A stretch of 34,564 bases of DNA, taken from IMG/VR virus record IMGVR_UViG_3300009702_000057, positions 1 through 34,564 of that record; one strand, 5' to 3'. The notes under the pieces were generated by a model, which was given only the letters and a program-made list of their open reading frames with translations, searched no databases and was not told the origin of the DNA. Both the position numbers and the translations under genes were made by a program. How positions within the stretch are numbered: the first letter of the stretch is position 1; the number at the start of each line of letters is the position of its first letter. Below are positions 411 to 33,403 of this stretch, in pieces. This stretch comes from a virus.

Positions 411-425
411 TGTTTTCAGGAACAA

Positions 426-560: not shown

Positions 561-607
561 AGGGCGACGCCAGGACGATGCCCTCAGAAGGACACACAGG
601 GAAACAT

Positions 608-662: not shown

Positions 663-670
663 CGCACGAG

Positions 671-710
671 GTGAACACTCGCAAACCAGATGAACCGGCC
701 GGGCCGGCCG
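671..710. repeat. Right outermost arm of the inverted repeat system
   Basis: GTGAACACTCGCAAA (671-685) followed by CCGGCCGGGCCGGCCG (695-710) mirrors the block at 174-208, with 13 of 15 matches in the first element and the same GGCCGG-rich flank. Confidence 0.6.
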
Positions 711-791
711 AGCCGCCCACACCACCGAGAACAAATCGTGAACATAGGGCACCCCCCGCCTAACCCATTGATCTACAACGATTATTCGCCC

Positions 792-819
792 TTGACATGC
801 CCCCGCCGCCTGCTATACT
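792..819 (+). promoter_or_regulatory. Sigma70-type early promoter
   Basis: A perfect -35 box TTGACA (792-797) is separated by 16 bp from the -10 box TATACT (814-819), which is preceded by TGC (extended -10). It lies about 50 bases before the first gene and is the only strong promoter I see for the whole plus-strand early operon. It implies use of host RNA polymerase. Confidence 0.8.
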
Positions 820-871
820 GCCCTCACCGGCCAGCCCCACGCCGCTGGCTACCTAACGAAAGGTCTTAGCA

Positions 872-1249
872 ATGTCTACCATCCTCAGTGTCCAGATAGA
901 CTTGTCGCCGCGCCAAGCCCTCATTGCTTGGAGCGCCATGAAAGAGTTTCTGGCAGATAACGGCCCCAACTGTCGCGGTATCACAAACGGTCTTACCACC
1001 CCTGAGGACGCCACACCGCCACGCCAGTTGCCTACCAGCGCCTACGGCTGGATTATGATCAGGCAGAATATAGCAGCCGTAGGCTACTGTGAGCGCAACG
1101 GCTGGTATCTCTATCTTAATGTAGATGCCAGCCTACGGCCCCGGCACGACAACGCTATCCGCGAGATACTACACCGCCTAGGTGGCGTAGCCTGGATCGA
1201 CCAAGCCAAGATTCGCCTTCCAGTAGAGGAGCGCCCATTCTATGCCTAG
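872..1249 (+). CDS. Hypothetical early protein, 125 aa
   Basis: This is the first gene of the plus-strand operon, read directly from the promoter at 792-819. The ATG at 872 follows a GAAAGG ribosome binding site at about 859-864. I do not recognise the family. The product is a mixed alpha/beta-looking soluble protein with no membrane segment, and the C-terminal half (residues about 55-110) looks the most compact. It ends in TAG with an in-frame TAA three codons later, and its last 8 bases overlap the next gene, indicating translational coupling. First genes of phage early operons often act on the host, but nothing in the sequence shows that here. Confidence 0.75.
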   Translation: MSTILSVQIDLSPRQALIAWSAMKEFLADNGPNCRGITNGLTTPEDATPPRQLPTSAYGWIMIRQNIAAVGYCERNGWYLYLNVDASLRPRHDNAIREILHRLGGVAWIDQAKIRLPVEERPFYA

Positions 1250-1991
1250 CAACACTAACACCCCTAAGATCGACGCGCTATATCGGCGGATAGCCGCACT
1301 GCGCCAGCTTACCGAAGAGAACGGCGCAACCGTTGCCGAGGCTCTACTAGCGGCCGAGCGTATCGCGGACATGCTGGCACGCTATGACCTGGATATGTCC
1401 CAGGTCGATCTACGCGCCGGCGCCGGCACCGCCGAGCCCTACGCCACGCGCGAGTATGACCTAGGCGCTCGCCGCAAGCCCTCCATCATTGGCGCCATCA
1501 ATGCCATCGCCGCCTACACTGGCACCCGGGCTTGGTACAGCGCCGGCTATGGTGAGACTTACCGCGTCTACTACTTCGGCCAGCCCGCCCACACGATGTT
1601 TGCGGAGTACCTGCTATCTACCCTCCAGGACGCCATCCGCCGCGAGTGGCAGGATTTCCGGCTCTTCGAGCCAGCCGCGGGCCGCGCCGCCCGCTACGAT
1701 TTCGAGCTAGCAATGGTTCGTACCGTAGCCAAGCGCCTGCGCGACCTAGTCGCCGAGCGCCGCGCGCATGATGCCACTGGGCACGGCCTAATCCTACAGG
1801 ACAAGCTACAGACCGAGTTTAACAAGCTTGGCCTACGGCTACACGTTGCCCACAAAACGAGTCGTGGTATCTACAACCGCGAAGCTGGCGCGGCGGGCCG
1901 AGACGCTGGCGACCGCTTCACAGTCGGAAGGCCGGTGACCAAGCAAGGCTCGGGACTTCGTGCCTTGTCCTACAAGAACCGTGACGTGTAG
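1242..1991 (+). CDS. DUF2786-like protein, 249 aa
   Basis: Residues about 8-60 resemble the DUF2786 domain: a short Leu/Ala-rich helix pair with the pattern A-ER-I-A-MLARYDLDMSQVD, close to the family's typical ending on a helix followed by a Y-G/D-L-D segment. The rest (residues about 75-250) is a longer basic, helix-rich region with several Arg-Ala stretches that I cannot assign. DUF2786 proteins occur in phages and bacteria and have no established role. The start at 1242 overlaps the previous gene by 8 bases. The gene ends in TAG at 1989-1991; the frame stays open from there into the next gene (2037), but that gene has its own ribosome binding site, so a separate protein is more likely than a fusion. 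Confidence 0.75.
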   Translation: MPSNTNTPKIDALYRRIAALRQLTEENGATVAEALLAAERIADMLARYDLDMSQVDLRAGAGTAEPYATREYDLGARRKPSIIGAINAIAAYTGTRAWYSAGYGETYRVYYFGQPAHTMFAEYLLSTLQDAIRREWQDFRLFEPAAGRAARYDFELAMVRTVAKRLRDLVAERRAHDATGHGLILQDKLQTEFNKLGLRLHVAHKTSRGIYNREAGAAGRDAGDRFTVGRPVTKQGSGLRALSYKNRDV

Positions 1992-2036
1992 GCGCCGGCG
2001 CCGGTGCCAACGCCACCACTTAGAAAGGTACCAACC

Positions 2037-2432
2037 ATGACTATCTCCGCTCAGACAATCCACGAGATGTATGACGTAAGCCTGCACGGCATCGTCACTT
2101 CCCCTGGCAAGTTTGAAGGTGAACCCTGGTGGGTCGCCAGCATGTGGTACGAGCTTTCCCGCTGGGAAGATGACCGTATCTACGCCGAAGCCAACGGAAC
2201 AGTCTTCACGGTCTGTAAGATAGACAGCGAGCTACTCGCCGCCTACCCTGGTATCCAAGCTTGGCAAGGCTTGCCCCCACGGCCAGCCCGCCCGCCCGCC
2301 GACGAGCCCACCTATATAGTACTGTGGGAAGACAACCAAGGTTTCGTAACCGCCGTGGAGCTTACCACCGAGCAACTCGACAAGCTCCGCAACAAGTGCA
2401 AGTGCTCCGCACGCCCAAGCCTATCTCTCTGA
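2037..2432 (+). CDS. Hypothetical protein, 131 aa, paralog of the gene at 2759
   Basis: The start at ATG 2037 is chosen over the in-frame ATG at 2004 because AGAAAGG at 2022-2028 sits at the right distance. The family is not recognised. Residues 10-18 (EMYDVSLHG) and a C-terminal VLWEDNQGFV motif recur in the gene at 2759 as EHYNVSLEG and VLYEDNNGFV, so the two are probably diverged duplicates. A Pro/Arg-rich linker lies at about residues 80-92. Two stable hairpins follow the stop codon (2445-2487). Confidence 0.7.
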   Translation: MTISAQTIHEMYDVSLHGIVTSPGKFEGEPWWVASMWYELSRWEDDRIYAEANGTVFTVCKIDSELLAAYPGIQAWQGLPPRPARPPADEPTYIVLWEDNQGFVTAVELTTEQLDKLRNKCKCSARPSLSL

Positions 2433-2444
2433 CCTTCACCCGAG

Positions 2445-2487
2445 GGCGCCAGCTAGGCGCCTTCCAGTGAGGGCCGCGAGGCGGCCC
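2445..2487 (+). other. Two intergenic hairpins
   Basis: GGCGCC-AGCTA-GGCGCC (2445-2461) and GGGCCGC-GAG-GCGGCCC (2471-2487, perfect 7-bp stem with a 3-base loop) sit between two genes. No T tract follows, so this is not a classical intrinsic terminator. It could be an RNA stability or processing element. Confidence 0.45.
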
Positions 2488-2507
2488 CGAGCAAGGGACA
2501 TAGAGCA

Positions 2508-2714
2508 ATGATCTACACCATGCAACATCCCAACGATGCCAACGAGAAGATCATACTTGGCTTGCCGCAGGAGCTTTTAGGGATTTTAGAATATCATCGC
2601 AAGTATCTAATCTGGACTGACCGATGCGGTCACTTCATGCTATGCAAGATCGTTCCGGCACCTTCCTATATCGAGACCAATAAAGAGGAACTAATCACGG
2701 CAAGCGTTCCTTGA
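2508..2714 (+). CDS. Hypothetical protein, 68 aa
   Basis: A small acidic-to-neutral protein of unknown family. The upstream site AAGGGA (2494-2499) is a modest ribosome binding site for ATG 2508. Its C-terminus, EELITASVP, is nearly the same as EEFITAGVPD at the end of the gene at 2759, and FMLCKI resembles FTVCKI in the gene at 2037. The three neighbouring genes therefore look like a small diverged family. Confidence 0.65.
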   Translation: MIYTMQHPNDANEKIILGLPQELLGILEYHRKYLIWTDRCGHFMLCKIVPAPSYIETNKEELITASVP

Positions 2715-2758
2715 CGAGCTAGGGAGAGAGAGAACCAACTTAGAAAGGAACTCATGAC

Positions 2759-2992
2759 ATGGACAAATTCCGTGCAGAAGTCGAAGAACATTACAATGTC
2801 AGTCTAGAAGGCCAAGCCATTGCCATAATCAAGTCTTCACTAGATCTTTTCACAGTGGCTCCAGAACTAAGAAGCCTCCTATCAAGAGACGAAGCTTCAG
2901 CACTCGTTCTCTACGAAGATAACAACGGCTTTGTCAACTCCGACATTTTAGGTAATATAGAAGAGTTCATCACTGCAGGCGTTCCCGACTAA
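2759..2992 (+). CDS. Hypothetical protein, 77 aa, paralog of the gene at 2037
   Basis: ATG 2759 is preceded by AGAAAGGA. Another ATG at 2754 lies in a different frame that stops quickly, so 2759 is the start. The acidic protein carries EHYNVSLEG near the N-terminus and VLYEDNNGFV near residues 50-60, both shared with the gene at 2037, and its last residues match those of the gene at 2508. Function unknown. Confidence 0.7.
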   Translation: MDKFRAEVEEHYNVSLEGQAIAIIKSSLDLFTVAPELRSLLSRDEASALVLYEDNNGFVNSDILGNIEEFITAGVPD

Positions 2993-3019
2993 CCGGAGAG
3001 AAGGAAGGGAGACAAAGTG

Positions 3020-3727
3020 ATGTCCTACCAAATCACCCCTGCCGATATCCAGGCCGCTGCCCGTGCAGGGGCCTGCGGCGTAGCCCTAGACCATCTCAGA
3101 ACGGGCAGTTGGACAATCGACGAGCTATGCAACAAGCATCCTGCTTGGGCACTCTGGGCAATAGCTAACATGCCCGGCGCAGCAGAGATCATCGGAACGG
3201 AGCGCATCGTTGCCTGCACCACAGTAGTGCCTCTTGAAGGTATAATCTGTGCCCGGGATTATCTGACAGCAGAACAGCTAGATGCGTGTGCCGCGAAGGC
3301 GCCTGGCACAGCATTATATCTTATCGCGTCTAGACTAACAAAAGCCCGGCTAGACGCATGTGCTGCCGCAGCGCCGACGTCTGCTTTACTCTACGCTAGA
3401 AAATACCTAACACCCGCCAGGGAAGCCTGGTGCCACGAGCAGCTCCACCCCCAGCAGAAGGAAGCTCCTCTCATGAACATCAACACAATAGAGGACTTCC
3501 GCCGGGCACTCGCCTCCGGCCCGTCGTTCTTTCCTGGTGGCTACGCCAAAGTGTTCTTCTTCCACGACGGAGCCCCTGTTTGCTATCACTGCGCCAAAGC
3601 TGAACAGAGCTTGATCGAGGACGCGATAAAGGACCAAACCGGCGACTGGCAGGTGATCGCTTGCGAAAGCGCCGAACTGCACGAGACAGCTCCTGTTTGC
3701 AGTGAGTGTGAACAGGAAATCCGTTAA
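3020..3727 (+). CDS. Helical-repeat protein fused to a C-terminal zinc-finger-like phage module, 235 aa
   Basis: The start is ATG 3020 (GTG 3017 is in frame immediately before), after GGAAGGGAG. Residues about 10-145 are built of helical repeats of roughly 22 residues with a recurrent LT-x2-x-LDACAA-x-AP pattern (for example LTAEQLDACAAKAPGTAL followed by LTKARLDACAAAAPTSAL). From residue 152 the protein changes to a compact module with CYHC and, near the end, CSEC, a likely four-cysteine metal site. Proteins resembling this second module occur alone in other phages as I recall. An internal ATG at 3473 has its own AGAAGGAAG site, so the second module may also be made separately (84 aa). Function unknown. 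Confidence 0.7.
   Translation: MSYQITPADIQAAARAGACGVALDHLRTGSWTIDELCNKHPAWALWAIANMPGAAEIIGTERIVACTTVVPLEGIICARDYLTAEQLDACAAKAPGTALYLIASRLTKARLDACAAAAPTSALLYARKYLTPAREAWCHEQLHPQQKEAPLMNINTIEDFRRALASGPSFFPGGYAKVFFFHDGAPVCYHCAKAEQSLIEDAIKDQTGDWQVIACESAELHETAPVCSECEQEIR
3456..3475 (+). promoter_or_regulatory. Internal ribosome binding site and start inside the preceding gene
   Basis: AGAAGGAAG (3456-3464) lies 8 bases before an in-frame ATG at 3473. The start matches the boundary between the helical-repeat part and the Cys-rich part, so a separate 84-aa protein ending at 3727 is plausible. Confidence 0.5.
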
Positions 3728-3743
3728 GAAAGGAGCCCACGCA

Positions 3744-3935
3744 ATGCCTAGACCTATCCTGCGACCCCACACCAGCCCTAGGCAACTTTTCAACAGCTCC
3801 CGCTCGCTAGAGCGCCACTACCAAATAGGAACCCAGGCGTACCAAACCAAGATAGAGGCAGATCTACAGGAGACAGAGGATTACCTTCAATATCTGTACT
3901 CCCACAATCTATCCATCGAGCGGGCGCCCGACTAA
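3744..3935 (+). CDS. Hypothetical protein, 63 aa
   Basis: ATG 3744 follows a strong AAAGGAG at 3729-3735. The upstream in-frame start at 3702 would overlap the previous gene and has no such site. The protein has a basic, Pro/Arg-containing N-terminus followed by an acidic helix (residues about 25-55). Family unknown. Confidence 0.6.
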   Translation: MPRPILRPHTSPRQLFNSSRSLERHYQIGTQAYQTKIEADLQETEDYLQYLYSHNLSIERAPD

Positions 3936-3986
3936 CAGCAGCCCCCCACCACCCCCACCATCCACCTGCTAACAAAGGAGCGAAAG

Positions 3987-4274
3987 ATGCGCGAGGGAAC
4001 CTATAGCACTAAGATCGAGATTTGTGTAGAAGGAGAATGCAACGACCATGACATACTCGTATCTTACGAATACGAGCCAGCCGAGCGGGAGCTATCGCCC
4101 TCGCTAGCGTCTAGCGGCCGACCTGGCCATGGGCACAGCATTTCCATCTACCTTGTAGAGTTAGAGCGGGGCAACGGCAAGTACGTTAGCCTACCGCTCT
4201 GTCTCATCCCGAAGAACGCCATGCTGACCTGGATCGACGCCATCGAGGCCGAGCTCCTGTCCGAGACCCCGTAG
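3987..4274 (+). CDS. Hypothetical protein, 95 aa
   Basis: A strong AAAGGAG lies at 3974-3980 before ATG 3987. The N-terminal half looks like beta strands (a KIEICVEGEC segment then a SYEYEPAERE segment) and the C-terminal half ends in an acidic helix. No family is recognised. It ends in TAG. The 51-base gap before it is C-rich with no clear signal. Confidence 0.65.
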   Translation: MREGTYSTKIEICVEGECNDHDILVSYEYEPAERELSPSLASSGRPGHGHSISIYLVELERGNGKYVSLPLCLIPKNAMLTWIDAIEAELLSETP

Positions 4275-4293
4275 ACAACCAAAGGAGCTAGCT

Positions 4294-4590
4294 ATGTCCA
4301 TCTCTTTCTCGAGCTTCATGGCAGAGCGACAGCGCAAGATACTGTCCGGCCCCCCGCCGGACCTTCAGCGCCGCGCTCATTGGCTTGCCACCAACTACCC
4401 GGAAGTAATCGAACACCAGTCGCGGCTATATGCCGAGGCCAACGCCGCGGACCCGTTCGCCTACCGGCGAGCACGTACCTATTTCCACGTCGGCATCGCC
4501 ACTCCCGAGGACTACCAAGCCGACAAGTACACAGAGGATGTCGAGGGACGGCTCGTGACATCCTTTCGTAACCAGAAAGTTCCATGCTAA
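4294..4590 (+). CDS. Hypothetical protein, 98 aa
   Basis: ATG 4294 follows AAAGGAG (4280-4286). Soluble, Arg- and Tyr-rich, mainly helical by appearance. Family not recognised. An imperfect hairpin (4592-4610) sits directly after the stop. Confidence 0.6.
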   Translation: MSISFSSFMAERQRKILSGPPPDLQRRAHWLATNYPEVIEHQSRLYAEANAADPFAYRRARTYFHVGIATPEDYQADKYTEDVEGRLVTSFRNQKVPC

Positions 4591-4591
4591 C

Positions 4592-4610
4592 TTGCCGTCG
4601 CCTTCGGCAA
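4592..4610 (+). other. Small intergenic hairpin
   Basis: TTGCCG (4592-4597) pairs with CGGCAA (4605-4610) over a 7-base loop, directly after the stop of the gene at 4294. No T tract follows. Confidence 0.35.
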
Positions 4611-4632
4611 CCTTAGACAAGGAGACACCAAA

Positions 4633-5079
4633 ATGTCAACGACCTGCGATACTTCCCTCGACAGACTAGTCCAGAGTCTGCGCGCCGCCGCCGACTTCCT
4701 CCAACAGCACCCCGGCCTTGGCGTACGGAAGTCTGAGCTAGACATCAGCTTCTACAGCTTCGGTGAGCCGGAAACCCTCGACCTTGCCAAGCGCATCGCC
4801 AAAGAGCTTGGCACGTTTCGGAAAGAAGAAAGCGACACCCTTCTAGTGCTCACCAAGAATCTCGGCGTGGTCAAGCTGCGGTTTGTCTTCGGCCGCGAGA
4901 ATATTTGTCTCCGGGAACAGGTCGGAACGCGCACGATACCAGCCGCGCCTGCGCGACCAGCGAGCAAGGTGCCCGTGTATAAGTATCACTGCCCGCCGCT
5001 TCTCACTCCTGCGACACCTTCCACCACGGGACCATCGGTCCCGGTGCAGCCGGCGGAGCCCAGCGGTGAAAGTAGCTAA
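4633..5079 (+). CDS. Hypothetical phage protein, 148 aa
   Basis: ATG 4633 follows AAGGAG (4619-4624). Residues about 10-85 look like a helix-strand fold, followed by a segment around LREQVGTRTIPAAP that resembles a C-terminal pattern in hypothetical proteins of other phages (Cys/Arg, then V-G-T, then a Pro/Ala stretch, then a short aromatic-Cys motif, here KYHCPPLL). I know of no function for that group. The Pro/Ser-rich tail is probably disordered. The last 14 bases overlap the next gene. Confidence 0.65.
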   Translation: MSTTCDTSLDRLVQSLRAAADFLQQHPGLGVRKSELDISFYSFGEPETLDLAKRIAKELGTFRKEESDTLLVLTKNLGVVKLRFVFGRENICLREQVGTRTIPAAPARPASKVPVYKYHCPPLLTPATPSTTGPSVPVQPAEPSGESS

Positions 5080-5422
5080 CTTCAACCCTATCCTGATCGA
5101 GCTACTGGTCAAGGCCGGGAATGGCGAAGTGATAGAGCATCAACTGCCCGCTTTGAAGGATGTCTATCATATTCGCCACCGGCTTTACTCTCTCCGCAAA
5201 GCAATGCGCGCTGAGAACCATCCGCTGGCGGATGCGGCGCAACAGACTACCGTCAAGGTTATAAAATCGCCGCCCACTCTCCGCTTGGAGCCAGCAGACT
5301 TCAGCTTTGCTAGCTTACTAGAAAGCCAAGGCTTTGCCAGCCCGCCCTCGGCGGCGAGCCCTGCGAGCGGAGACGCCACCCTGGCAGACATCATAGGAGA
5401 CACCACAGATGACACAGACTGA
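5066..5422 (+). CDS. Hypothetical protein, 118 aa (GTG start)
   Basis: I place the start at GTG 5066, just after GGCGGAG (5052-5058). This gives a 14-base overlap with the gene before; starts further upstream would lie deep inside that gene. The N-terminal 50 residues are a basic, Leu-rich helical domain that could contact nucleic acid; the C-terminal half is Ser/Ala/Pro-rich and acidic at its end. Family unknown. It overlaps the next gene by 14 bases. Confidence 0.6.
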   Translation: MKVANFNPILIELLVKAGNGEVIEHQLPALKDVYHIRHRLYSLRKAMRAENHPLADAAQQTTVKVIKSPPTLRLEPADFSFASLLESQGFASPPSAASPASGDATLADIIGDTTDDTD

Positions 5423-5720
5423 CACGGCTTCGTCGCCGGCGACTGAGCTAGAGCAAATCCTAGCTATGACTCCCGAGGACCGGCTTGCCGAGATCGAGAA
5501 GCTGGCTAGCTTCGGTCTAGAAATCGAGGACGACGCGCTACGTCGCTTGATCCGGCTAATCCGCACAGAGCGAGAGACACGAGAGGCGCCAAAGGCTAAA
5601 CGCGCTACCAGCAAGAAAACTACCCGCCGCCAAGCAGCCGCTCAGGCGGAAGCCGATTTCGATGCTTTCCTAGCGGCTACCACAGGCGGGGCCGGCGGCC
5701 CCACCACAGAGGAAGACTAA
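5409..5720 (+). CDS. Hypothetical acidic/basic helical protein, 103 aa
   Basis: AGGAGA lies before ATG 5409. An acidic helical segment (residues about 12-55) is followed by a Lys/Arg/Thr-rich stretch (about 58-78) and an Ala/Gly tail. The pattern resembles a small DNA-binding or recombination accessory protein, but no family is recognised. It lies 2 bases before the nuclease gene, so they are probably co-translated. Confidence 0.6.
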   Translation: MTQTDTASSPATELEQILAMTPEDRLAEIEKLASFGLEIEDDALRRLIRLIRTERETREAPKAKRATSKKTTRRQAAAQAEADFDAFLAATTGGAGGPTTEED

Positions 5721-5722
5721 TT

Positions 5723-6682
5723 ATGTCTATACAGCCCTCAGATGATACAGGGCCGAAGGCCGGGCCGAAGGCCACCTGGCCGGCTTCCCTAGGAAGCCAC
5801 GGAGCCGCCGCCACTGATTGTGCGCAGAAGTTCTTCTTCTCCCACTGCGAGCACCTAGAAACCCCCGGCGTGTCCATAGACCTACACTGTGGCAGCGTCG
5901 TATCTACTGCGCTGGAAGCAGCACGCCGAGAGCCACACCACGACCAGAAACAGTTAGCAGCAGCACGCCAAGCTATCGCTAGCTGGGATAATTACCGCAC
6001 TTTCTCCAACGAGACCAAAGATCTCACAAACACTGTCTCTGCTATCCTCGCCTACCTAGATTACTACTCCCCGGACCCTGTGCAGGTATATGAGAGCCGC
6101 ACTGGACCCGCGGTAGAATACACATTCGCCATCCCCCTTCCCGTCCTGTCGCCTGTCACGGGCGAACCTATACTATACGTCGGCCGGATGGACTGGCTAG
6201 GCTTCGACACGCGCACCCGAGAACTCTGTGTAGTGGACGAGAAGACCACTGGCCGGTCTTTCAGCCCCAAGTGGCTTAATTCATTTCGGATGCGCGGGCA
6301 GTTGTTAGGCTACCTATGGGCTGTCCGCCAATATGGGCTCCCAGTGACTTGTGTGCTGATCCGAGGTATCTGTATCCAGAAGACAAAGATCAGCTTCCAG
6401 GAAGTCCGCCTACACTTCCCTGAGTAGCAGATTGATGACTGGTTTCAGAACCTATGCCGGAAGCTCGAACGCATGAAGATGTTCTGGAAGACCGGCCAGT
6501 GGCCTCGATCCTACGGTGACCTATGCACCACCTACGGCGGTTGCCCCTATCTCGATCTATGCACCATCTCCGACCCGACCCGCTACTATCCTCTCTACAC
6601 GCGGAAGCCGCTTAATCATCTAGATGCTAGGGCAGCAGCCGCACCAGCCACAAGGGGAGCGCCAGCCAATGCCACTGCTTAG
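5723..6682 (+). CDS. Cas4/RecB-like PD-(D/E)XK nuclease interrupted by an in-frame amber codon
   Basis: The reading frame from ATG 5723 stops at TAG 6425-6427 (234 aa) but continues open in the same frame to 6682, giving 319 residues if the TAG is read through. The first part has the RecB-type nuclease motifs: RMDWLG, the DEK of VVDEKTTG, and QLLGY (QxxxY). An N-terminal Cys33 (TDCAQKFFF) and three cysteines after the TAG (268, 274 and 280, C-x5-C-x5-C) match the Fe-S cluster layout of Cas4/AddB-type exonucleases. The TAG therefore separates the catalytic core from three of four cluster ligands. Possible explanations are readthrough, a true nonsense mutation, or a sequence error. The neighbouring Sak4-like and SSB-like genes suggest a recombination exonuclease. 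Confidence 0.8.
6425..6427 (+). other. In-frame TAG codon inside the nuclease gene
   Basis: The context is CCT GAG TAG CAG ATT. A C directly after TAG is generally a weaker termination context, and the protein downstream (W240, then the Cys motif) clearly belongs to the same family. Confidence 0.8.
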
Positions 6683-6752
6683 CCTTCCTTTCTTCCCCAT
6701 CCTGATGTTCTACTACCTATATCTATACTGGAAGCAAAACCGTGACAAATGA
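6669..6752 (+). CDS. 27-aa single-span membrane peptide
   Basis: ATG 6669 lies after AAGGGGAG (6652-6659) within the end of the nuclease frame and runs to TGA 6750-6752. The peptide has a short N-terminus, a continuous hydrophobic and aromatic stretch (residues about 3-21, including LMFYYLYLYW) and a charged tail KQNRDK, like a tiny inner-membrane protein. It overlaps the nuclease 3' end by 14 bases and the next gene by 11. Small phage membrane peptides can affect host membranes or lysis timing; no role can be shown here. Confidence 0.5.
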   Translation: MPLLSLPFFPILMFYYLYLYWKQNRDK

Positions 6753-7011
6753 TCCCCCGGGCTCGCGCCCGCAGCCGCCTGCCGCGCGGGCCACGCCGTC
6801 CGCCCGCGAGATAGAACAGATGCTTCATGAGTTTCTGCTTTTCCTCGATGGTGTCCGTAGAGATATAACTGCTATCACCACTATCCTATTCAATGCCTAT
6901 AATACATCGAACTCTCTGATGGGTGGTTTAGGTTCCTATGACCGCGCCGACTTGCACGTGCGACTAGAGGAACTGCTGCGTAGAGTGCAGAGATACAATG
7001 GCCTCAAATAG
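6742..7011 (+). CDS. Small helical protein, 89 aa, first of a tandem paralog pair
   Basis: GTG 6742 follows TGGAAG. A Pro/Ala-rich N-terminus (residues 1-20) is followed by a helical domain with EIEQMLHEFLLFLDGVRRD and a C-terminal LLRRVQRYN. The next gene has the same length (89 aa), the same order of segments and the matching EVERVLREFLACF and LLWRVQRYN, so these are tandem duplicates. The C-terminal RYN codons (AGATACAAT) contain the start of the next gene, giving a 14-base overlap. Function unknown. Confidence 0.7.
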   Translation: MTNDPPGSRPQPPAARATPSAREIEQMLHEFLLFLDGVRRDITAITTILFNAYNTSNSLMGGLGSYDRADLHVRLEELLRRVQRYNGLK

Positions 7012-7267
7012 CACGCCGACGCCGACGCCGCCGAGCGGCAGCGGCCCACCGTCTTTCCAAGAGGTAGAAAGGGTACTACGGGAGTTCCTTGCCTGCTTCT
7101 ATCAAATGGAGAAAGCCATAGACCAAGCTGCAAATGCTATGTGCACTCTCGACAACTACCCTGCGGCGTGGGATGACGTCCTAAACTACAGAGAGATGTC
7201 GGAAGTGGAAGAAACTGTGAAAGACCTACTATGGAGGGTACAGAGATACAATGACACACACCGATAA
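6998..7267 (+). CDS. Small helical protein, 89 aa, second of a tandem paralog pair
   Basis: ATG 6998 lies inside the 3' end of its paralog. The product has a Pro/Thr/Ser-rich N-terminus and then the helical domain shared with the previous gene. It ends with the same AGATACAATG arrangement, which again contains the start of the next gene (7251, 17-base overlap). The duplication therefore copied the overlap arrangement as well as the coding part. The ribosome binding site is weak (translation probably coupled). Function unknown. Confidence 0.7.
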   Translation: MASNSTPTPTPPSGSGPPSFQEVERVLREFLACFYQMEKAIDQAANAMCTLDNYPAAWDDVLNYREMSEVEETVKDLLWRVQRYNDTHR

Positions 7268-7457
7268 GTCTCCCAGACAGTGGTTCTACATCGACACCGG
7301 CTATGCTTGCGGCGGCGTGTCCGTCTATGCCGGCCGTGTCATCCACGCCGCACCCATCTTTCGTTGGATGGAAGGCCAGTGCTGGAATAGAGTACGGCAG
7401 TGGCACAAGATACTGGAAATCCAGGAGATACTCCACCTCCCCCCCAGATCCCTCTAA
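7251..7457 (+). CDS. Small phage protein, 68 aa, of the 'DTGYACGG' type
   Basis: GGAGGG lies at about 7233-7238 before ATG 7251. The core, FYIDTGYACGGVSVYAGRV followed by APIFRWMEGQ, resembles a small protein found in many phage genomes, usually near replication genes, whose function is not established as far as I know. The aromatic, strand-rich pattern suggests a compact beta fold. Confidence 0.65.
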   Translation: MTHTDKSPRQWFYIDTGYACGGVSVYAGRVIHAAPIFRWMEGQCWNRVRQWHKILEIQEILHLPPRSL

Positions 7458-7477
7458 GCAGCCAAGGGAGCCTCACG

Positions 7478-7750
7478 ATGGCTAAGGAATACTTCGTAAT
7501 CCCTTTGAAAGCTGCGGACAGCGGCGCCGAGGACGATCTCTTACAGCTCTACCACCAACTAGTAGCTCTCAGAAAACATGTAGAGAAGATAATGCAGAGA
7601 CAGACTTTCAGACAAAACATCTTACTTAATCACCTGGTCACTATAAGTCTTGTCTTACTCCACGATCTCATATTCCTCGCTCATCAACTCAGTCAGGATC
7701 ACGCCAAGCTCACAGCGCCCACGCCACAGACAGACAGTGAAAGGAGCTAG
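7478..7750 (+). CDS. Hypothetical protein with an amphipathic or membrane helix, 90 aa
   Basis: ATG 7478 follows a strong AAGGGAG (7464-7470); in-frame starts further upstream lie inside the previous gene. Residues about 22-40 form a charged helix and about 46-68 a long Leu/Ile/His-rich helix (LVTISLVLLHDLIFL) that could be membrane-associated or a coiled-coil interface. Family unknown. It ends 4 bases before the Sak4-like gene. Confidence 0.6.
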   Translation: MAKEYFVIPLKAADSGAEDDLLQLYHQLVALRKHVEKIMQRQTFRQNILLNHLVTISLVLLHDLIFLAHQLSQDHAKLTAPTPQTDSERS

Positions 7751-7754
7751 CCAG

Positions 7755-8600
7755 ATGCTCAAAGGAACCAAAACTCTCCTAATCGGCCCGCCGGGGTCGG
7801 GCAAAACTACCAGCCTTGTAACCTTCTGCAAGGCCGGCCTCGATCTTTTCTGCCTAATCACCGACCCTGGCGGCGAGGAATCCCTAATCGACGCAGCCCG
7901 GCTATACGACATCCCAATGTCTAAGCTCCACTGGCACACTATCTCTATCGGGGTGTCGGATTGGGACGCGCTAGATCGGCTCGCACAGAATCTCTCCACC
8001 CATTCTTACGAAGGTCTGAAGAAGCTGAAAAGCCCCAATCTCGCCCATCCCGATACCTACACCCATATGCGGCTCCTGCTACAGCAGCTTAAGAACTTCG
8101 AGGATGAGAACACCGGTAAGGAGTTCGGCCCTGTCGGCGCTTTCGGACCCGACAGGGCACTAGTCTTCGACAGCCTGTCATCTCTGAACACACTAATCTA
8201 TCAGTTGCATATCGGCGAGCGCCCATCTTCCCACGAAGGTGAATACGGCGTCGTTATGGACTACGAGCGCCGCTTCATCGAAAGCATCACAGGCAGTCTA
8301 GCGTGTTTCGTCGTGCTCACCGCTCACATGGAACGCATCTATGTCAGCGAGGCGCAGGCTCATCTCAAACTCCCCCTATTCCTTGGCAAGAAACTGGCGC
8401 CCGTCCTACCCTACCTATTCTCTGACGTAATAGTAGCAGTGAAGAAAGGAGGCAAGTTCAGTTGGTCCACAGCGGAAGCTGACATGGACCTAAAGGGAAG
8501 AGCCCTCCCAATCCAGTCTGGGCTCACTCCGTCCTTCGAGCAGGTAGTAGATACCTGGCGTACCCGTAACCAAGCTGTAGGAGTACCAACGAATGACTGA
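7755..8600 (+). CDS. Sak4-like RecA-fold ATPase, 281 aa
   Basis: ATG 7755 follows AAAGGAG. The Walker A motif GPPGSGKT is at residues 11-18 and a Walker B-like strand ALVFDS ends at Asp139. The spacing and the SSL-N-L segment after Walker B fit the phage AAA_24/Sak4 group of RecA-like recombinases, which assist single-strand annealing. In many phages such a protein sits beside an exonuclease and an SSB, as here (nuclease upstream, SSB-like gene directly downstream with an 8-base overlap). It probably acts in recombination-dependent replication or repair of phage DNA in the cytoplasm. Family assignment is by motif only. Confidence 0.8.
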   Translation: MLKGTKTLLIGPPGSGKTTSLVTFCKAGLDLFCLITDPGGEESLIDAARLYDIPMSKLHWHTISIGVSDWDALDRLAQNLSTHSYEGLKKLKSPNLAHPDTYTHMRLLLQQLKNFEDENTGKEFGPVGAFGPDRALVFDSLSSLNTLIYQLHIGERPSSHEGEYGVVMDYERRFIESITGSLACFVVLTAHMERIYVSEAQAHLKLPLFLGKKLAPVLPYLFSDVIVAVKKGGKFSWSTAEADMDLKGRALPIQSGLTPSFEQVVDTWRTRNQAVGVPTND

Positions 8601-9048
8601 CACCTTCAATCCCGACACCTTCCTCGATACTGATGTGAAGGCTGACTTCTCCGATAAGTATGTCCCGATCCCTCCTGGTCGTTACATCGCCACGATCGAC
8701 GAGGCTCCTCCGATTGTCAGGATGACTAAGGATGGGCCAGTGGTGAACATCAAGTTCGTCATCGACGACCCGGAGCTTACCGAGCGCCTGAACATTCGCA
8801 ACCCTTCCGCCGTGATGTCTATCTGGCCCGATCTGGAGTCTGACGGCAGTCTGTCGGTGGGCGTGAATAAGAATGTGAAGCTCGGTCGGCTGCGTGCTGC
8901 CTTGGGGCAGAACGATGCGAAGCGTGCCTGGAACTGGAACCATCTTCGCGGCGCCGGTCCTGTCCTGGTCGATGTGTACTCGCAGACCTCGGACAAGGAT
9001 CCTGGCATGGTGTATAATAAGGTCAACCGCGCCTATCCTGTCTCCTAA
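8593..9048 (+). CDS. SSB-like protein (DUF669 type), 151 aa
   Basis: ATG 8593 overlaps the Sak4-like gene by 8 bases, after GGAG. The pattern PIPPGRYIATIDEA, followed by a strand pair VVNIKFVIDD and later VLVDVYSQTSDKD, resembles the DUF669 group of phage proteins thought to bind single-stranded DNA and often encoded next to Sak4 or RecT-type genes. Codon use is distinctive: Lys is always AAG and there are no CTA, ATA or AGA codons, whereas neighbours use them often. That suggests high expression. A strong hairpin with a weak T tract follows at 9127-9145. Confidence 0.65.
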   Translation: MTDTFNPDTFLDTDVKADFSDKYVPIPPGRYIATIDEAPPIVRMTKDGPVVNIKFVIDDPELTERLNIRNPSAVMSIWPDLESDGSLSVGVNKNVKLGRLRAALGQNDAKRAWNWNHLRGAGPVLVDVYSQTSDKDPGMVYNKVNRAYPVS

Positions 9049-9126
9049 CCACCACGCCAGCATCACGTCAGCATCGCATAGTCTGTAAGCTGTAAGCTCT
9101 CAAGCTCTCAGGCTCTACTTGGGGTG

Positions 9127-9157
9127 GGGTGGCCAATGGCCACCCTACTCTGTCTTT
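9127..9157 (+). terminator. Probable intrinsic terminator or mRNA-stabilising hairpin
   Basis: GGGTGGCC-AAT-GGCCACCC (9127-9145) is a perfect 8-bp stem with a 3-base loop, followed by a T/C-rich tract (TACTCTGTCTTT). It stands in the 169-base gap after the SSB-like gene; the rest of that gap has only short AAGCTCTCA-type repeats (about 9086-9115). Confidence 0.5.
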
Positions 9158-9217
9158 ACTAGCCTCCGCCCTAGCGGCGACGCCGCCCAGGCGGGGTGAT
9201 GAAAGGAAGCAAAGCAT

Positions 9218-9490
9218 ATGGAACCACAGCAGAGTACGAGTAAAGCTGCCTCGCCGCGGGCGGTACGTCGCCGAAGCCACCGTCGGTGGCACTATAATCC
9301 TAAAACCCGGATACAAACCTACGCCTCACCCTCCGGCCACGTGTTCACTATAAAAAGAGAGAACGGTACTATGACTGGCCTTTACTACACTCTCTGGCTG
9401 GCCGGGAGGTGCATTGACCACGGGACAGGCGTGTCTCCCTTAAAGTGGAAGGCAGAGCACTACGAGACTCTCATAAAGCAGTCACAATGA
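9218..9490 (+). CDS. Hypothetical basic protein, 90 aa
   Basis: ATG 9218 follows AAAGGAAG (9202-9209). An Arg/Ser/His-rich N-terminus (residues about 8-30) is followed by a domain with VFTIKRENGTMTGLYYTLWLAG. Family unknown. It ends in an ATGA overlap with the glycosylase gene, which supports this frame over the alternatives in the region. It may be a small nucleic-acid-binding protein, by charge only. Confidence 0.55.
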   Translation: MEPQQSTSKAASPRAVRRRSHRRWHYNPKTRIQTYASPSGHVFTIKRENGTMTGLYYTLWLAGRCIDHGTGVSPLKWKAEHYETLIKQSQ

Positions 9491-10107
9491 GAGAAACCTT
9501 CTTCGGCACACGCGGGAACCGCAACGCCAGCATAGCTATCATCGGAGAGGCTTGGGGAGCGCAGGAAGCCGAGCAACAGCAGCCCTTTGTCGGGCCGAGC
9601 GGCAATCTACTAGATCAGCTTCTGGGGCAAGCCGGCATCGACACCACAGACTGTTTTTTCACCAATCTGGCTGCCACGCAGCCCGCTGGCAATAAGATGT
9701 CCACCCTTTTCAACACAACGAGTCCTATCTTCCGAGGTCTCCAGCCTAATGAGTTCCTAGTCAACGAGTTGCAGCGTCTAGAGACGCAGCTAGCCTTGGT
9801 AAAGCCCCGCGTGATAATTGGCTTGGGTAACTATCCACTTTGGTATTTCCAGCCCTCGGCCGTGAGTATTACAAAGAAAGATGGAGTGCTGGTGCCCTCG
9901 GGCATTGGGAAGTGGCGTGGCAGCCAGCTACAAACCAACACCGGCTTGCCCTTCCTGCCCACCTACCATCCTGCCGCCACATTCCGCAACCCAGCTTTCC
10001 GCCCCCTTATCCTGCATGACTTCCGCTCCCGCGTCCCACAGATGCTAGACCGCGATGCCAAGCAGGCGCCCATCTACCAGTATCTCATCAATCCCAACCT
10101 ACCGTAG
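9487..10107 (+). CDS. Uracil-DNA glycosylase superfamily protein, 206 aa
   Basis: The start ATG 9487 overlaps the previous stop (ATGA). Motif 1 reads GEAWGAQE (residues 20-27), followed by QPFVGPSGNLLDQLL (32-46), TN at 59-60, and the second active-site motif in LPTYHPAAT (His161-Pro162). This is the layout of family 4-like UDGs, but Trp replaces the usual Pro in motif 1 and the four Fe-S cysteines of classical family 4 are absent, so the subfamily is uncertain. UDGs remove uracil from DNA. The stop TAG (10105-10107) is followed at once, in the same frame, by the DNA polymerase start, so the two may be coupled or partly fused. N-terminal UDG-like domains on phage polymerases are known, as I recall, in SPO1-like phages. 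Confidence 0.75.
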   Translation: MRETFFGTRGNRNASIAIIGEAWGAQEAEQQQPFVGPSGNLLDQLLGQAGIDTTDCFFTNLAATQPAGNKMSTLFNTTSPIFRGLQPNEFLVNELQRLETQLALVKPRVIIGLGNYPLWYFQPSAVSITKKDGVLVPSGIGKWRGSQLQTNTGLPFLPTYHPAATFRNPAFRPLILHDFRSRVPQMLDRDAKQAPIYQYLINPNLP

Positions 10108-11889
10108 GTGTTGCAGTTCCTCAGTAAGCTGCCAGCGGAGATATGTGTAGACCTCGAAACTTCCAAAACCTACCACATCACTGCCTGCGGCATAGGCGCG
10201 CCGGACTGCCCCACCATCCTCTGCATCCCATTCACCAGAAGTGGGCAGTATTCTTACTGGTCGGAAGACGAAGAGTTCCAAATAGTCCGAGCCCTTCGCG
10301 ACACCTTGTCTATGCGCAGCGTGATAGGCCAGAATTTCCTATACGACGCTCAGGTGCTGCATCGGTGGTGGGGTATCCATCCCCGTATATCCTGGGACAC
10401 CATGGTTGCACATCATCTATGTTGGCCCGGCGAAGGCGGCCAGGGTATTGAAAGTAAAAGCCTAGGCTTTCTATCCTCCCTCTACCGCCGCCACCACGTC
10501 TTCTGGAAAGACGAGCGTCACACCTCCCACCAGCAAACTTTCTGGCAATACAACTGTAAGGATGTGGAAGCCACGATGGAGATCGCGGAGGCGCAGCATA
10601 GCCTAATCAGCAAGCTAGACCTACAGCCTCAGTCGGAGTTCCAGATGTGGCAAGTCCGGCTGGCTCTCCAGATGCTGCTCCGTGGTATCCGTGTCTCCGC
10701 CGCCGCGAAAGCACGAGCCACCGCCGAGCTAGAGAGCAAGATCAAGCAGACGCAGGCTTGGCTGAGTAGCATCATACCACAGTCAGAGGTCAGGACAAAA
10801 AGCAAGGCCGCGTGGTATGACAGTCCTAAGCAAACCAAAGACATCTTCACTTCCTTGCTACAGCGTCGCGGCCGGCTGCGATCTCTTACAGGCTCGGGGA
10901 AAGATGTGCTGCCAAAGGTAGCCGCCGCCCTACCCTGGGCGCACCGCCTGATCGAGCAGCTTCTGTTCTATCGTAGTCTCCACGTCTACTACTCTACATT
11001 CGCCACGGCGCGGGTTGGCCGCGACGGGCGCATACACTCCAAATTCAATCCTGCGGGGACGAAAACTTTACGTTGGTCCAGCCGTAAGACCGACTTTGGG
11101 CTAGGTATGAACCTACAGAACATCCCCCGCGCCGACGACACGCGTTTTCCTTCCATCCGTAGCTTCTTCATCCCCGACGACGGCTACTTACTCATCTCCG
11201 CGGATTTGCAGGGCGCCGACGCTCAGGTACTAGCTTGGGATGCCGGGGACACCGATCTGATGCAGGATTTTGCGGAGGGCAAAGCTATCCACGTGGAGAA
11301 CTGCCGTAAGATGTTCCCTCGTGAGACGCGAGGCTTGTCCGACCCGCAGATCAAGGCGCTGCCTCTCTACCACCAGACTAAGCAAGCAATCCACGCCACT
11401 GACTACGGTGTGCAGGCTGAAACGCTGTCGCGGGAGGTCGGCTGGAGCTATGCTTTCGCCTCCCGCTTTATCCAGGAATGGCTTTCTCTCCACCCGGCCA
11501 TCCATCAGTGGCACCGCCGGATACAAAATGATCTTGCTACGCGGGGCTACATCCAAAACCAGCTTGGCTATCGTTGCACCTTCACAGGCTGGAATATTAT
11601 GTCTAAAGCCTTCTCTTGGATCCCCCAGTCTACTGTCGCACTGGTAACTTTCAAAGGCGCGCAGCAACTACTTGCCCACTATCCCTTGTGTCAAATCCTT
11701 CTACAACTCCACGACGAACTCATCTTCCAAATCCCCCTTTCGCTGCGCACTGAACTCCCGCAGATACAGAAGTGTCTACACTTCCCCATCCCTTACCCGC
11801 GCCCGTTGACTATCCCCTGGACTACCCGAGTAAGTGAGAAGTCTTGGGGTGAGATGATACCTGTAGAGGAGTACGACTATGCCAGCTAA
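10108..11889 (+). CDS. Family A DNA polymerase with 3'-5' exonuclease, 593 aa
   Basis: Exonuclease motifs: DLE with Asp15 and Glu17, GQNFLYD ending at Asp80, and YNCKD (Tyr148-Asp152). Polymerase motifs: the RWSS...NLQNIP region (322-340), motif A ISADLQGADAQ (Asp366), motif B K426 to Y433-G434 (KQAIHATDYG), motif C QLHDELIF (His535-Asp536-Glu537). There is no 5' nuclease domain, as is usual for phage enzymes. The start is GTG 10108, followed by TTG. There is no convincing ribosome binding site and no gap after the preceding TAG, so translation probably depends on the upstream gene. This is the replicative polymerase. Confidence 0.9.
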   Translation: MLQFLSKLPAEICVDLETSKTYHITACGIGAPDCPTILCIPFTRSGQYSYWSEDEEFQIVRALRDTLSMRSVIGQNFLYDAQVLHRWWGIHPRISWDTMVAHHLCWPGEGGQGIESKSLGFLSSLYRRHHVFWKDERHTSHQQTFWQYNCKDVEATMEIAEAQHSLISKLDLQPQSEFQMWQVRLALQMLLRGIRVSAAAKARATAELESKIKQTQAWLSSIIPQSEVRTKSKAAWYDSPKQTKDIFTSLLQRRGRLRSLTGSGKDVLPKVAAALPWAHRLIEQLLFYRSLHVYYSTFATARVGRDGRIHSKFNPAGTKTLRWSSRKTDFGLGMNLQNIPRADDTRFPSIRSFFIPDDGYLLISADLQGADAQVLAWDAGDTDLMQDFAEGKAIHVENCRKMFPRETRGLSDPQIKALPLYHQTKQAIHATDYGVQAETLSREVGWSYAFASRFIQEWLSLHPAIHQWHRRIQNDLATRGYIQNQLGYRCTFTGWNIMSKAFSWIPQSTVALVTFKGAQQLLAHYPLCQILLQLHDELIFQIPLSLRTELPQIQKCLHFPIPYPRPLTIPWTTRVSEKSWGEMIPVEEYDYAS

Positions 11890-12058: not shown

Positions 12059-12060
12059 CA

Positions 12061-12393: not shown

Positions 12394-12448
12394 TCCGAGC
12401 CCTGTCGTGCCGGAGGGTAGATTTTAGCAGGATTGGCTTAAAGGCTAC

Positions 12449-13604
12449 ATGGATTTCACCTCTTTCAGTGAAGCCCCTGATATCTTCCACTTCTGGACGT
12501 GTATCTCCGTACTCGTCGGCGCCGCCCGCCGCAATGTCTTCATAGACCAGTTCCATTTCAAATGGACGCCGAATTTCTACATCGTATTCGTAGGCCCGCC
12601 CGGCGTTGTAACCAAATCCACCACTATCCGTATCGGCACCCGCATCCTCCGCGCCGTTCCGCATATCAAATTCGGTCCCCAGAGTATGACCTGGCAAGGT
12701 CTCATGACTGGTCTAAGCGAAGCTCTAGTCGGGCAGAAAGACCCTGAAGGCAACATCCGTAAAGTCAGTTGCATCACCTGTACAGTCTCAGAACTCGGTA
12801 CATTCCTGCGCCCCGCCGACACGGAGCTAACTTCCTTCCTAATCGACCTATGGGACGGAGCCGAGGGCGTATGGACCCGGCATCTTAAAAACGAGGAATA
12901 CGTGTTGGAAAATCCCTGGATCAACCTGATCGGAGCTACCACACCGAGCTGGCTTAAATCAAACTTCCCCGACAGCTTGATAGGCGGCGGGCTGACAGCC
13001 CGAGTGATCTTCATCTTCGCGGATAAGAAACGGAAAAGCGTGGCCTACCCCGGCTTAGAAATCGACCGGGACGCCTATAAAGCGAAGCAGCGGACGCTTG
13101 TGTCCGATCTTAAGATCATCGCTCAGCTACAAGGGGAGTTCAAATTCACCGCGGAGGCGCGAGAATGGGGCCACCACTGGTACGACACTCTGCTCGATAC
13201 AGTGCCGAAGGACCGGGAAGCCACCTGGCAAGATGACTTCTGTTACCGCAAGCAAACCCACCTACACAAGCTAGCTATGGTCCTCTCTCTCGCGCAGAAA
13301 AATGAGTTGATACTGGAGCTAGAGAACCTCCAGCTAGCTGATAAGCTCCTAGCTAGTCGAGAAGGATATGCACAAGGTTTTCAAATCAATCACCCAGCCT
13401 ACCTCGTCGAAGAATATGGAAAATCTGCTAGCTTTCCTTCATATCTTCCACGAGCTCCCATATGTAAAACTCTACCGCCATGCGATGTTGTCGATGAACC
13501 CGAAAGACTTCCAAGAGGCAGTGGACTCAGCAATCCATGCCCAGTTTCTCCGTGTGGAGAAGCGAGGAAAGGAAGTCTTCTTCGTAGAAAGGAGACGAGG
13601 ATGA
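12449..13604 (+). CDS. DUF3987-like ATPase, apparently frameshifted (about 384 aa if joined)
   Basis: ATG 12449 has AAAGG close upstream. Walker A-like GPPGVVTKST lies at residues 49-58, followed by the TVSELGTFL segment, LIDLWDGAEGVWT, and NPWINLIGATTPSWL with GGGLTARVIFIF, all typical of DUF3987-like phage ATPases related to primase-helicases. The frame that starts at 12449 stays open to 14071, but after about 13355 its sequence turns into Pro/Ser/Arg-rich shadow sequence. A +1 frame (open from 13353 to TGA 13604) instead carries the expected winged-helix end: EKDMHKVFKSI, LLAFLHIF, and VEKRGKEVFFVERR. A +1 shift or a one-base error at about 13355-13367 joins them. The start may also be upstream: in-frame codons giving QDWLKGY precede the ATG but are preceded by TAG 12425. 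Confidence 0.7.
13353..13370 (+). other. Apparent +1 frameshift site in the DUF3987-like ATPase
   Basis: The upstream frame reads up to AGT-CGA (13355-13360); the downstream frame reads GAG AAG GAT ATG CAC AAG from 13359. The last stop in the downstream frame is TAG 13350-13352, so the shift must lie after it. No classical slippery site is evident. Confidence 0.6.
13588..13594 (+). promoter_or_regulatory. Ribosome binding site that defines the next gene
   Basis: AAAGGAG (13588-13594) lies 6 bases before ATG 13601. It shows that the Myb/SANT-like part of the long open frame is a separate gene and not the C-terminus of the ATPase. Confidence 0.7.
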
Positions 13605-14071
13605 CGGCAGGCAAAGCCAGCTGGTCGCCAGCCGAGGACAAAGAGTTGTGCAGGTTGGTGTCAGAGGGTCTTAACTTCGCAGAAATCGCGGGCATCATCA
13701 ACCGTACCCGGCGGCAAATAGAATACAGGTGGAAGCGATTGGAGGAAGGCTTACAGAGCGGTGTGGAGGAAATAAAACTAACCGCTCCCGAGTTCATCGA
13801 AACGCTGCTGCTGCCGCGGCCGCCCCACACCATTCTATACTTGGTAGGAAACCTCGCCTTGGCAAGGCAGGCCAAGTCTACGGCAGGGAAGCAGATAGAC
13901 CAACTAGGGGAGCTGGTCTACCACGCCTACCAGCGAGGCATTGGCACGCCCCTGCAGCGGCGGACCAGCTCCCCTGTATCTAAGGAGTACCTATTCCTTG
14001 TCCGAGCTGTGCTGGACCAGCCTCAGTTTGACTTCCTACAGGCCCAAAAGCAGTATCTTGCAAATCAATAA
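13601..14071 (+). CDS. Myb/SANT-like DNA-binding protein, 156 aa
   Basis: ATG 13601 makes an ATGA overlap with the stop of the corrected ATPase frame (TGA 13602-13604). Residues about 7-46 have the SANT/Myb-like pattern W-x2-AED-x-EL-x2-LV-x-EG, then a short helix ending EIAGIINRT, then RRQIEYRWKRL, with Trp9 and Trp41 in the expected places: a helix-turn-helix that probably binds DNA. The C-terminal 100 residues are not recognised. This is the last gene of the early operon and its end overlaps the late operon's last gene on the other strand by 92 bases. It could be a regulator, but its target cannot be seen. Confidence 0.65.
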   Translation: MTAGKASWSPAEDKELCRLVSEGLNFAEIAGIINRTRRQIEYRWKRLEEGLQSGVEEIKLTAPEFIETLLLPRPPHTILYLVGNLALARQAKSTAGKQIDQLGELVYHAYQRGIGTPLQRRTSSPVSKEYLFLVRAVLDQPQFDFLQAQKQYLANQ

Positions 14072-31843: not shown

Positions 31844-33403
31844 CTACGGGGCCGCTCTAACCGGCGCCAGGGCCGGAATGTCTCGTTCCTGCAACATCAC
31901 GCTCATGTTTAAGTCTCCGTCCAGATCGACGGCTGGCCGCTTGCTAAGCTCCGACACAGCAATTGCCACTGCCTCGATCAGATCGTCATGCGACACCTCC
32001 GGGTAGGAATTAAACTGAGATATGAAGTCAGCATGATCCCGCTTTACATACAGATGCCCCGTCGCAGCCGGCCCGCTGAGACCATCTATGATCCTATCAT
32101 ACTTTTTCCTGCGGTCCCGGAACTCCGACACGACGAAGTATTGCCGCTGATGGTTCATCGCCTTGCGGAGTAGCCATAGCAAAGTCTGCTGGTAGGCTAC
32201 TGTCTCGACGAAGATGCGGCGGGGTCGCCAGCGTAGTGCCAGCTGGAAGAACTCCATCACGGTCCACTCGGGGTCGTGGCCGCGCCGCACCGAGTAGTCG
32301 AGCAAATAGAAATCGCCTCGGTGCCGGCCCACCACCGCGAAAGCCTCGTAATCCTTCCCTTTCATACCCTTGGCTATCTGCCGATCACTGGGCGGCGGCA
32401 CCGGGTCGATACTCATCACCACGTCTAGCGCCGCTCGATCCGGCAACAACTCATAGTAACAAAGCCACTTCGGGTCGAACGCCGAGCTTTCCTTCGATAC
32501 CAGCCGGCACTCCATCTCTCGCAGCCAGATAGATAGCTGGTTACGGTCGAGGAAGAATTGTTTCTTCTCTCGCAGTGTAGCATCGGACCATCTGTCGGGC
32601 CAGATAGAGCGTTGCAAGCGCAGCGGAGCGTCTGCCGTGTCAGCGGTCCAGCATGGGAACACCTTGGACTGCCACTCCTGATCGCTGAGTGCCAGCGTGC
32701 TTGCATCCTCGCGATCCAGTGGTGTCTGAAGCATCACCAACTTGGCATCCGGCGCCTCACTTGCCGGTGCCAACGACTGTGCGAGCGCGCCGTAGATAAG
32801 AGCCGAAATCTTCTGCCGTTGCTCTGCCGTCGCGCAGTTCTCCTCATTTAGCGCATCGTCGATTATTATAAGATCTGGTCGGAAGTCATCCTGGTTGATA
32901 CCACGGATGCTCCCTGTGATCCCTGCCGCCATGATCCAGACCGGATAGTTGTCGGTACCTTGCCAAATCTCCGCTTCCGTATCCTGCCATTTCTTCCCCG
33001 GGCGCAAATTAAAAACGGACTGGAACAACTTATTAAACTCTACCGCACGGCGGAGCCACTTCACAGAGGTAACTGCCTGCGACTCACTCTTAGAAATATA
33101 AAGAATGGTATGCGCCAAGCCGTAGGCTATCCGCTTCGCGGTATACATACGGAGCAAGGATGTCTTACTCCCACCGCGGAACACCTGGATGTTGACCAGA
33201 CGACTAGTACTCTCCAACAGATCCCAAATCTGATTGTGGAACAGTGGCGTGCGCTGCCGTGTGGTGCGAGGGAAGAAAGTGGTACAGAAGAGTTCGTTGT
33301 CTAGAGCACAGAGTTCTATCAACTCCTGGACAGACACCTTCGCCTGCGGCGGCTCTGCTGCCGGCTCCGCCGTATCATTGGTGATGGCAAATGTCTGTTC
33401 CAC
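31844..33403 (-). CDS. Terminase large subunit, 519 aa
   Basis: GTG 33403 after GGAGAG. ATPase part: Walker A-like FRGGSKTS (residues 75-82), Walker B LIIIDDA (178-184). Nuclease part: Asp333 (MSIDP), Glu400 (RIFVE) and Asp473-474 (SHDDLIEA), the three acidic positions of the RNase H-like TerL nuclease. It packages DNA through the portal. No classical small terminase is recognised, unless the 91-aa gene just upstream serves that role. Confidence 0.9.
   Translation of the reverse strand: MEQTFAITNDTAEPAAEPPQAKVSVQELIELCALDNELFCTTFFPRTTRQRTPLFHNQIWDLLESTSRLVNIQVFRGGSKTSLLRMYTAKRIAYGLAHTILYISKSESQAVTSVKWLRRAVEFNKLFQSVFNLRPGKKWQDTEAEIWQGTDNYPVWIMAAGITGSIRGINQDDFRPDLIIIDDALNEENCATAEQRQKISALIYGALAQSLAPASEAPDAKLVMLQTPLDREDASTLALSDQEWQSKVFPCWTADTADAPLRLQRSIWPDRWSDATLREKKQFFLDRNQLSIWLREMECRLVSKESSAFDPKWLCYYELLPDRAALDVVMSIDPVPPPSDRQIAKGMKGKDYEAFAVVGRHRGDFYLLDYSVRRGHDPEWTVMEFFQLALRWRPRRIFVETVAYQQTLLWLLRKAMNHQRQYFVVSEFRDRRKKYDRIIDGLSGPAATGHLYVKRDHADFISQFNSYPEVSHDDLIEAVAIAVSELSKRPAVDLDGDLNMSVMLQERDIPALAPVRAAP

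Follow-up and report, generated by a model that had tools for sequence, protein, structure and literature searches.

The amber codon that interrupts a nuclease gene of this phage (TAG 6425–6427) is probably an ordinary working stop that arose by an unprogrammed change and is one of several lesions in the replication module. The gene would formerly have been continuous, as it is in all relatives, and further lesions are present in the same module: an amber codon between the UDG and exonuclease domains of a UDG-polymerase, a TAG at the start of the primase/helicase gene and a frameshift in the C-terminal part of the latter. These lesions, at 10105, 12425 and approximately 13360, come in addition to the one described in the initial annotation, which had offered readthrough, tRNA suppression, an inactivating mutation or a sequence error as explanations of the nuclease stop. 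Because neighbouring replication genes are broken too, generic damage or a sequence fault is indicated rather than a translation trick; the second amber, the TAG at an expected start and the frameshift thus favour the last two of these options. Special decoding of TAG 6425 is poorly supported and a special explanation is unneeded. The coordinates of the features are collected in Table 1.

The window, i.e. the whole stretch of DNA that was analysed, is a linear contig of 34,564 bases that constitutes the entire IMG/VR record. A phage collection searched with the contig yielded no close relatives, and the nuclease is approximately 30% identical to its nearest counterparts, which belong to Microcystis phage Mel-JY34 (PP438425), Vibrio phage VS-ABTNL-3 (MF497422), ctMlz233 (MW202489) and several IMG/VR contigs. 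In these three phages and in IMG/VR 3300005253_000341, as in the contig, the nuclease gene is followed by those of an AAA/Sak4-like protein, a UDG-PolA protein and a DUF3987 protein, and the shared gene order continues with late genes on the opposite strand. Unlike in the contig, the nuclease and primase genes of these relatives are unbroken, and UDG and polymerase are joined at the site of the contig's TAG. The contig also lacks the DNA methyltransferase that is present between Sak4 and Pol in Mel-JY34, VS-ABTNL-3 and ctMlz233; the gap between its Sak4-like and UDG-Pol genes (8600–9487) measures about 0.9 kb and is often 2–6 kb long in related loci. The comparison set comprised 160 viral and 10 genome loci fetched via capsid and primase alignments, and the whole contig was scanned for lesions against 21,858 stop-to-stop frames of relatives.

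Table 1. Features of the contig that are discussed in the text, with their coordinates in the window.
Feature	Position	Strand	Remarks
Nuclease, 5' part	5723..6427	+	234 aa, stopped by TAG 6425–6427; Cys33, E132, D157, K174, Q193, Y197
In-frame amber TAG	6425..6427	+	Y/W/H/F at this column in 47/54 relatives
Nuclease, 3' part	6428..6682	+	same frame, 84 codons; Cys268/274/280; stop TAG 6680–6682
UDG part of UDG-PolA fusion	9487..10107	+	Pfam UDG 3.3e-23; ends at TAG 10105–10107
3'-5' exonuclease and family-A DNA polymerase	10108..11889	+	UDG frame; Pfam DNA_pol_A 1.6e-32; profile E 5e-173
SD and TAG at primase/helicase start	12412..12427	+	GGAGGG from 12412, 7 nt, TAG 12425–12427, primase/helicase frame
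DUF3987 primase/helicase, first-frame part	12428..13363	+	40–50% identity to relatives; fallback start ATG 12449
Primase/helicase, C-terminal part	13353..13604	+	+1 frame; stop TGA overlaps next ATG
Myb-like domain gene	13601..14071	+	Pfam Myb_DNA-bind_6 1.8e-6; strong SD 5 nt before ATG 13601
Terminase large subunit TerL	31844..33403	−	intact; TAG end where 75/77 relatives end

The nuclease frame is open on both sides of the TAG, as had been noted initially, and runs on for 84 codons to the next stop; the motifs named at that time are all found, with Cys33, GRMDWLG (D157), DEKTT (K174) and QLLGY (Q193 to Y197) before the interruption and Cys268, Cys274 and Cys280 after it. Using a profile of the relatives only, built without the contig's own sequence, the upstream and downstream pieces match one family with E-values of 3e-59 and 1.9e-19, respectively, and are continuous in profile order (235 then 242), which upholds the proposal of one protein split by an amber codon ahead of Fe-S-type cysteines. 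An SD sequence, GAGGA, is located 8 nt 5' of ATG 5723. Residues E132, D157, K174, Q193, G196, Y197, C268, C274 and C280 are invariant across a 45-member alignment, 41 members of which match Pfam PF12705 (PDDEXK_1), and the contig sequence matches PHROG 1218 'exonuclease'. The predicted structure (mean pLDDT 90) matches AdnA (6ppu, E 5e-7), ACE1 (9iac, 2e-6), Cas4 (4ic1, 7e-6) and AddB (4cej, 1.5e-5); together with this fold match, the catalytic residue set of Cas4/AddB/AdnA-type nucleases is present (D157, K174, Q193 and Y197). Read through the TAG, the gene product is a PD-(D/E)XK nuclease with four conserved cysteines and a Cas4/AddB/AdnA-like fold. All four cysteines are in frame and conserved, the TAG parting Cys33 from the other three, and by analogy with AddB/Cas4-type enzymes they would hold an Fe-S cluster.

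The disposition of one N-terminal and three C-terminal cysteines is common to the contig frame, AdnA/AdnB, the nuclease domain of AddB, Cas4 and the Argonaute-associated Cas4 ACE1. In contrast to these proteins, the contig nuclease carries a TAG before its three C-terminal cysteines, and it is located in a phage replication operon and not beside CRISPR or RecBCD-type genes. It is also the most divergent of 46 sequences, with 6 of 36 family-invariant positions changed (rank 1) and the longest branch; this fits some loosening of constraint, without being proof of it. In the structural model, the TAG codon is the first residue of a 24-residue helix (234–257) leading to the three cysteines, so that the break is predicted to fall within the fold and not between domains. 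The 234-residue product would keep the catalytic motifs and, of the four conserved cysteines, only Cys33; with the closing helix and the other three cysteines lost, it is probably inactive. On the other hand, no catalytic residue or cysteine has been substituted on either side of the TAG, which is evidence against damage.

At the TAG column, a sense codon is present in 54 of the 54 relatives with an alignable nuclease, and all alignments run through the site. Taken with the downstream match given above, this contradicts the idea that the family normally ends at this position and that the downstream frame has no homologues. The initial annotation had expected a sense codon in related phages, with glutamine as the first candidate: the former is borne out and the latter is not, Gln being found once at a column otherwise occupied by Tyr (14), Trp (12), His (12), Phe (9) and others. 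As Tyr, Trp, His and Phe predominate among the relatives, an aromatic residue was probably ancestral. Leaky readthrough, by which the TAGs would be passed at a low rate to yield little full-length nuclease and UDG-polymerase, the stops damping the expression of replication genes, seems to us decidedly unlikely. It would agree with the conservation of the downstream frames, including the three invariant cysteines and the whole polymerase, and a study of bacterial genes has reported in-frame stops maintained by purifying selection, among which mobile elements are enriched (PMC7918605). The contig resembles those cases in having an isolated stop in an otherwise conserved frame of a mobile element. 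However, that study required stops to be shared by related genomes, and here no relative has a stop at the orthologous position (0/54 for the nuclease, 0/84 for the polymerase), a frameshift lies alongside, in the primase, which readthrough leaves unexplained, and a basal rate of readthrough would lengthen the 12 TAG-ended late genes as well. Structure 3' of the three TAGs is not unusually stable (z of −0.09, −0.62 and −1.27), which, with the absence of the TAG from relatives, also speaks against the option of programmed readthrough. Some low-level readthrough of the nuclease TAG is possible. It is very unlikely, in our estimate, that leaky ambers in the nuclease, the UDG-polymerase and the primase start form a replication brake, so that the enzymes are produced in small amounts or solely in hosts that decode TAG while the late TAGs hold firm; were the TAGs read through, such control of phage replication genes by amber codons would be novel.

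TAG works as a true stop in this phage, since it terminates 12 of the 22 late-strand genes and ends TerL at the family end point. The corresponding figure for core-gene ends of relatives is 81/578 (14%; P ~1e-5, the gene sets being different). This excess of TAG at late-gene ends (13980–34562, minus strand) is a separate observation for which no explanation was found. Efficient decoding of TAG would fuse late-gene neighbours at 16920, 23723, 25483 and 33440. Neither Rfam nor ARAGORN detects a tRNA in the contig, and a CUA suppressor tRNA was found neither in the contig, which is possibly incomplete, nor in 179 related loci; a tRNA gene occurs in just one of the latter and is not a suppressor, which shows that the related phages do not normally carry tRNAs. 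Suppression by a tRNA is thus disfavoured, both by the stops used by the late genes and TerL and by the tRNA content of the contig and its relatives.

The same data bear on the idea that TAG is a sense codon in the early genes, decoded by a tRNA of the phage or its host in the manner of code-15 phages, and render it extremely improbable. In its favour, all three stop lesions are TAG, and a tRNA could lie in the 6–14 kb or so by which the genome may be incomplete. Yet 54–58% of the single-base changes by which the early genes can acquire a stop produce TAG, so three TAGs are unsurprising (P 0.16–0.19 for all three), and the preferred residues differ among the three TAG columns (aromatic, E/Q/T/D and aromatic); the late terminators, the late-gene fusions and the scarcity of tRNAs described above argue against it further. 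In phages with reassigned TAG this codon lies in many genes, structural ones usually included, phAss-1 having TAG inside 41 ORFs and three suppressor tRNAs (PMC10607447), and suppressor tRNAs are present in about half of the phages predicted to use code 15 (PMC11210395). The contig is like the code-15 phages (crAss-like, Lak, phAss-1; TAG as Gln) in having in-frame TAG in core replication genes; unlike them, it uses TAG as its main terminator and has it inside only two or three genes, the structural genes being free. Internal TAG within homology is confined to 6425, 10105 and 12425, and global recoding of TAG was rejected in view of the TAG terminators and the few internal TAGs. A fourth internal TAG, at 16920, between parts of 389 and 979 aa and with an ATG directly after it, was rejected as no homologue spans the junction; the 389-aa part before it weakly matches a stand-alone 316-aa protein of relatives. 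Scoring all 1033 TAGs by codon usage had too little power to tell coding from non-coding ones.

Sense-strand stops within homology number only three, all of them TAG, at 6425 (54/54 alignments), 10105 (84/84) and 12425 (30/30). The UDG-polymerase frame is uninterrupted at the second site in all 84 aligned relatives, and in the contig polymerase none of the 29 invariant positions is oddly substituted and the branch is not accelerated against outgroups. At the third site, the SD at 12412 is stronger than 99% of positions (top 0.5%) and homology starts on either side of the TAG; as this TAG follows a strong SD by 7 nt and lies among the first codons of the primase/helicase gene, it may represent both an amber and the loss of a start codon. 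The frameshift of the same gene, at about 13350–13365, adjoins CTAGCTAG: the shifted frame matches the primase family with an E-value of 4.6e-16, the continuing frame has no match, and 10 relatives align across the frame change. Visual inspection of 13350–13365 revealed no motif for programmed frameshifting. The apparent 540-aa primase-Myb fusion is an artefact of the frameshift, because the Myb gene is a separate one, with a strong ribosome site of its own at ATG 13601. The lesion types are mixed (stops, a frameshift and a probable start loss), as generic damage predicts.

That the gene pieces are made separately by re-initiation and cooperate, i.e. a functional fission, is likewise hardly credible. 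The polymerase TAG does lie between domains with a GTG directly after it, splitting of the polymerase is common in the group (49 loci as against 33 whole), though at another site, and the primase has its fallback ATG 12449. Against this, GTG 10108 has no SD site (duplex energy +0.6 kcal/mol) and the SD of the nuclease restart codon ATG 6473 is weak, the nuclease break lies inside the fold (helix 234–257) with cysteines drawn from both pieces, and the relatives are all unsplit at these positions. For the primase, re-initiation is a weak possibility, and for the polymerase and the nuclease its prospects are poor.

The lesion bases rest on a single copy: no near-identical contig emerged from exact-pattern scans for the nuclease and frameshift sites, and a search with the single TerL protein gave no close viral contig. 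An erroneous consensus at the lesion positions, the phage genome being intact, is unlikely but deserves more weight than the translational explanations. Several unrelated lesion types occur in one contig and in none of the relatives, and the contig is a linear fragment shorter than most long relatives (40–49 kb), both of which would suit an assembly fault. However, three substitutions and an indel cluster in a 7-kb stretch of early genes, the 20 kb of late genes having none, and the frameshift adjoins CTAGCTAG and not a homopolymer. The ten late genes with homologues are free of lesions and all four lesions are in early genes (P ~0.02 if uniform), a distribution that points to real damage confined to the module more than to random error in the consensus. 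Among approximately 530 copies of eight core genes in relatives, none has a comparable internal stop or frameshift, the sole recurrent break being a mid-palm split of Pol, which is a gene arrangement. We therefore prefer to regard the lesions as probably present in a real genome, that of a defective or helped variant, and not merely in the assembled consensus.

Real damage of this kind would have arisen recently: the motifs on both sides of the nuclease TAG are kept and the polymerase has neither odd substitutions nor acceleration, so any loss must be very recent. Branch lengths gave a mixed outcome, being raised in the nuclease, the Sak4-like protein and the primase and not raised in the polymerase. 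If the lesions are real, the contig represents a phage whose replication module was damaged recently while its packaging and capsid genes stayed intact, and dependence on a helper or a standby gene set is implied. The case is a caution for recoding surveys, as the amber codon of a conserved phage gene resembled readthrough until the whole module was checked and further lesions came to light.

The following observations concern the composition of the contig and the polymerases of the group. Measured against the phages nearest to the contig by late genes, the early module (1–13980) is farther away than the late module (13980–34564; polymerase 2.0 vs. portal 0.67, contig against loci L015/L097), and this greater distance of the early genes suggests that the two modules differ in history. 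CTA is the top leucine codon in the early genes (75; 1–13980, plus strand) and not in the late ones (40/341), which is odd at 56% GC. The family-A polymerase is encoded by two ORFs in 49 related loci (L002, L013, L094–L172) and is whole in 33; the contig is whole at that point. The split point is fixed, right after an NLQN(I/L)P motif at profile position ~565, the N-part having a short acidic tail, the C-part starting with LPNIRK and the spacer ranging from −75 to 2888 nt. There is no sign of an intein in the 49 split loci, and a split polymerase has been reported for the OM43 phages MEP401 and MEP402 (PMC10580990).
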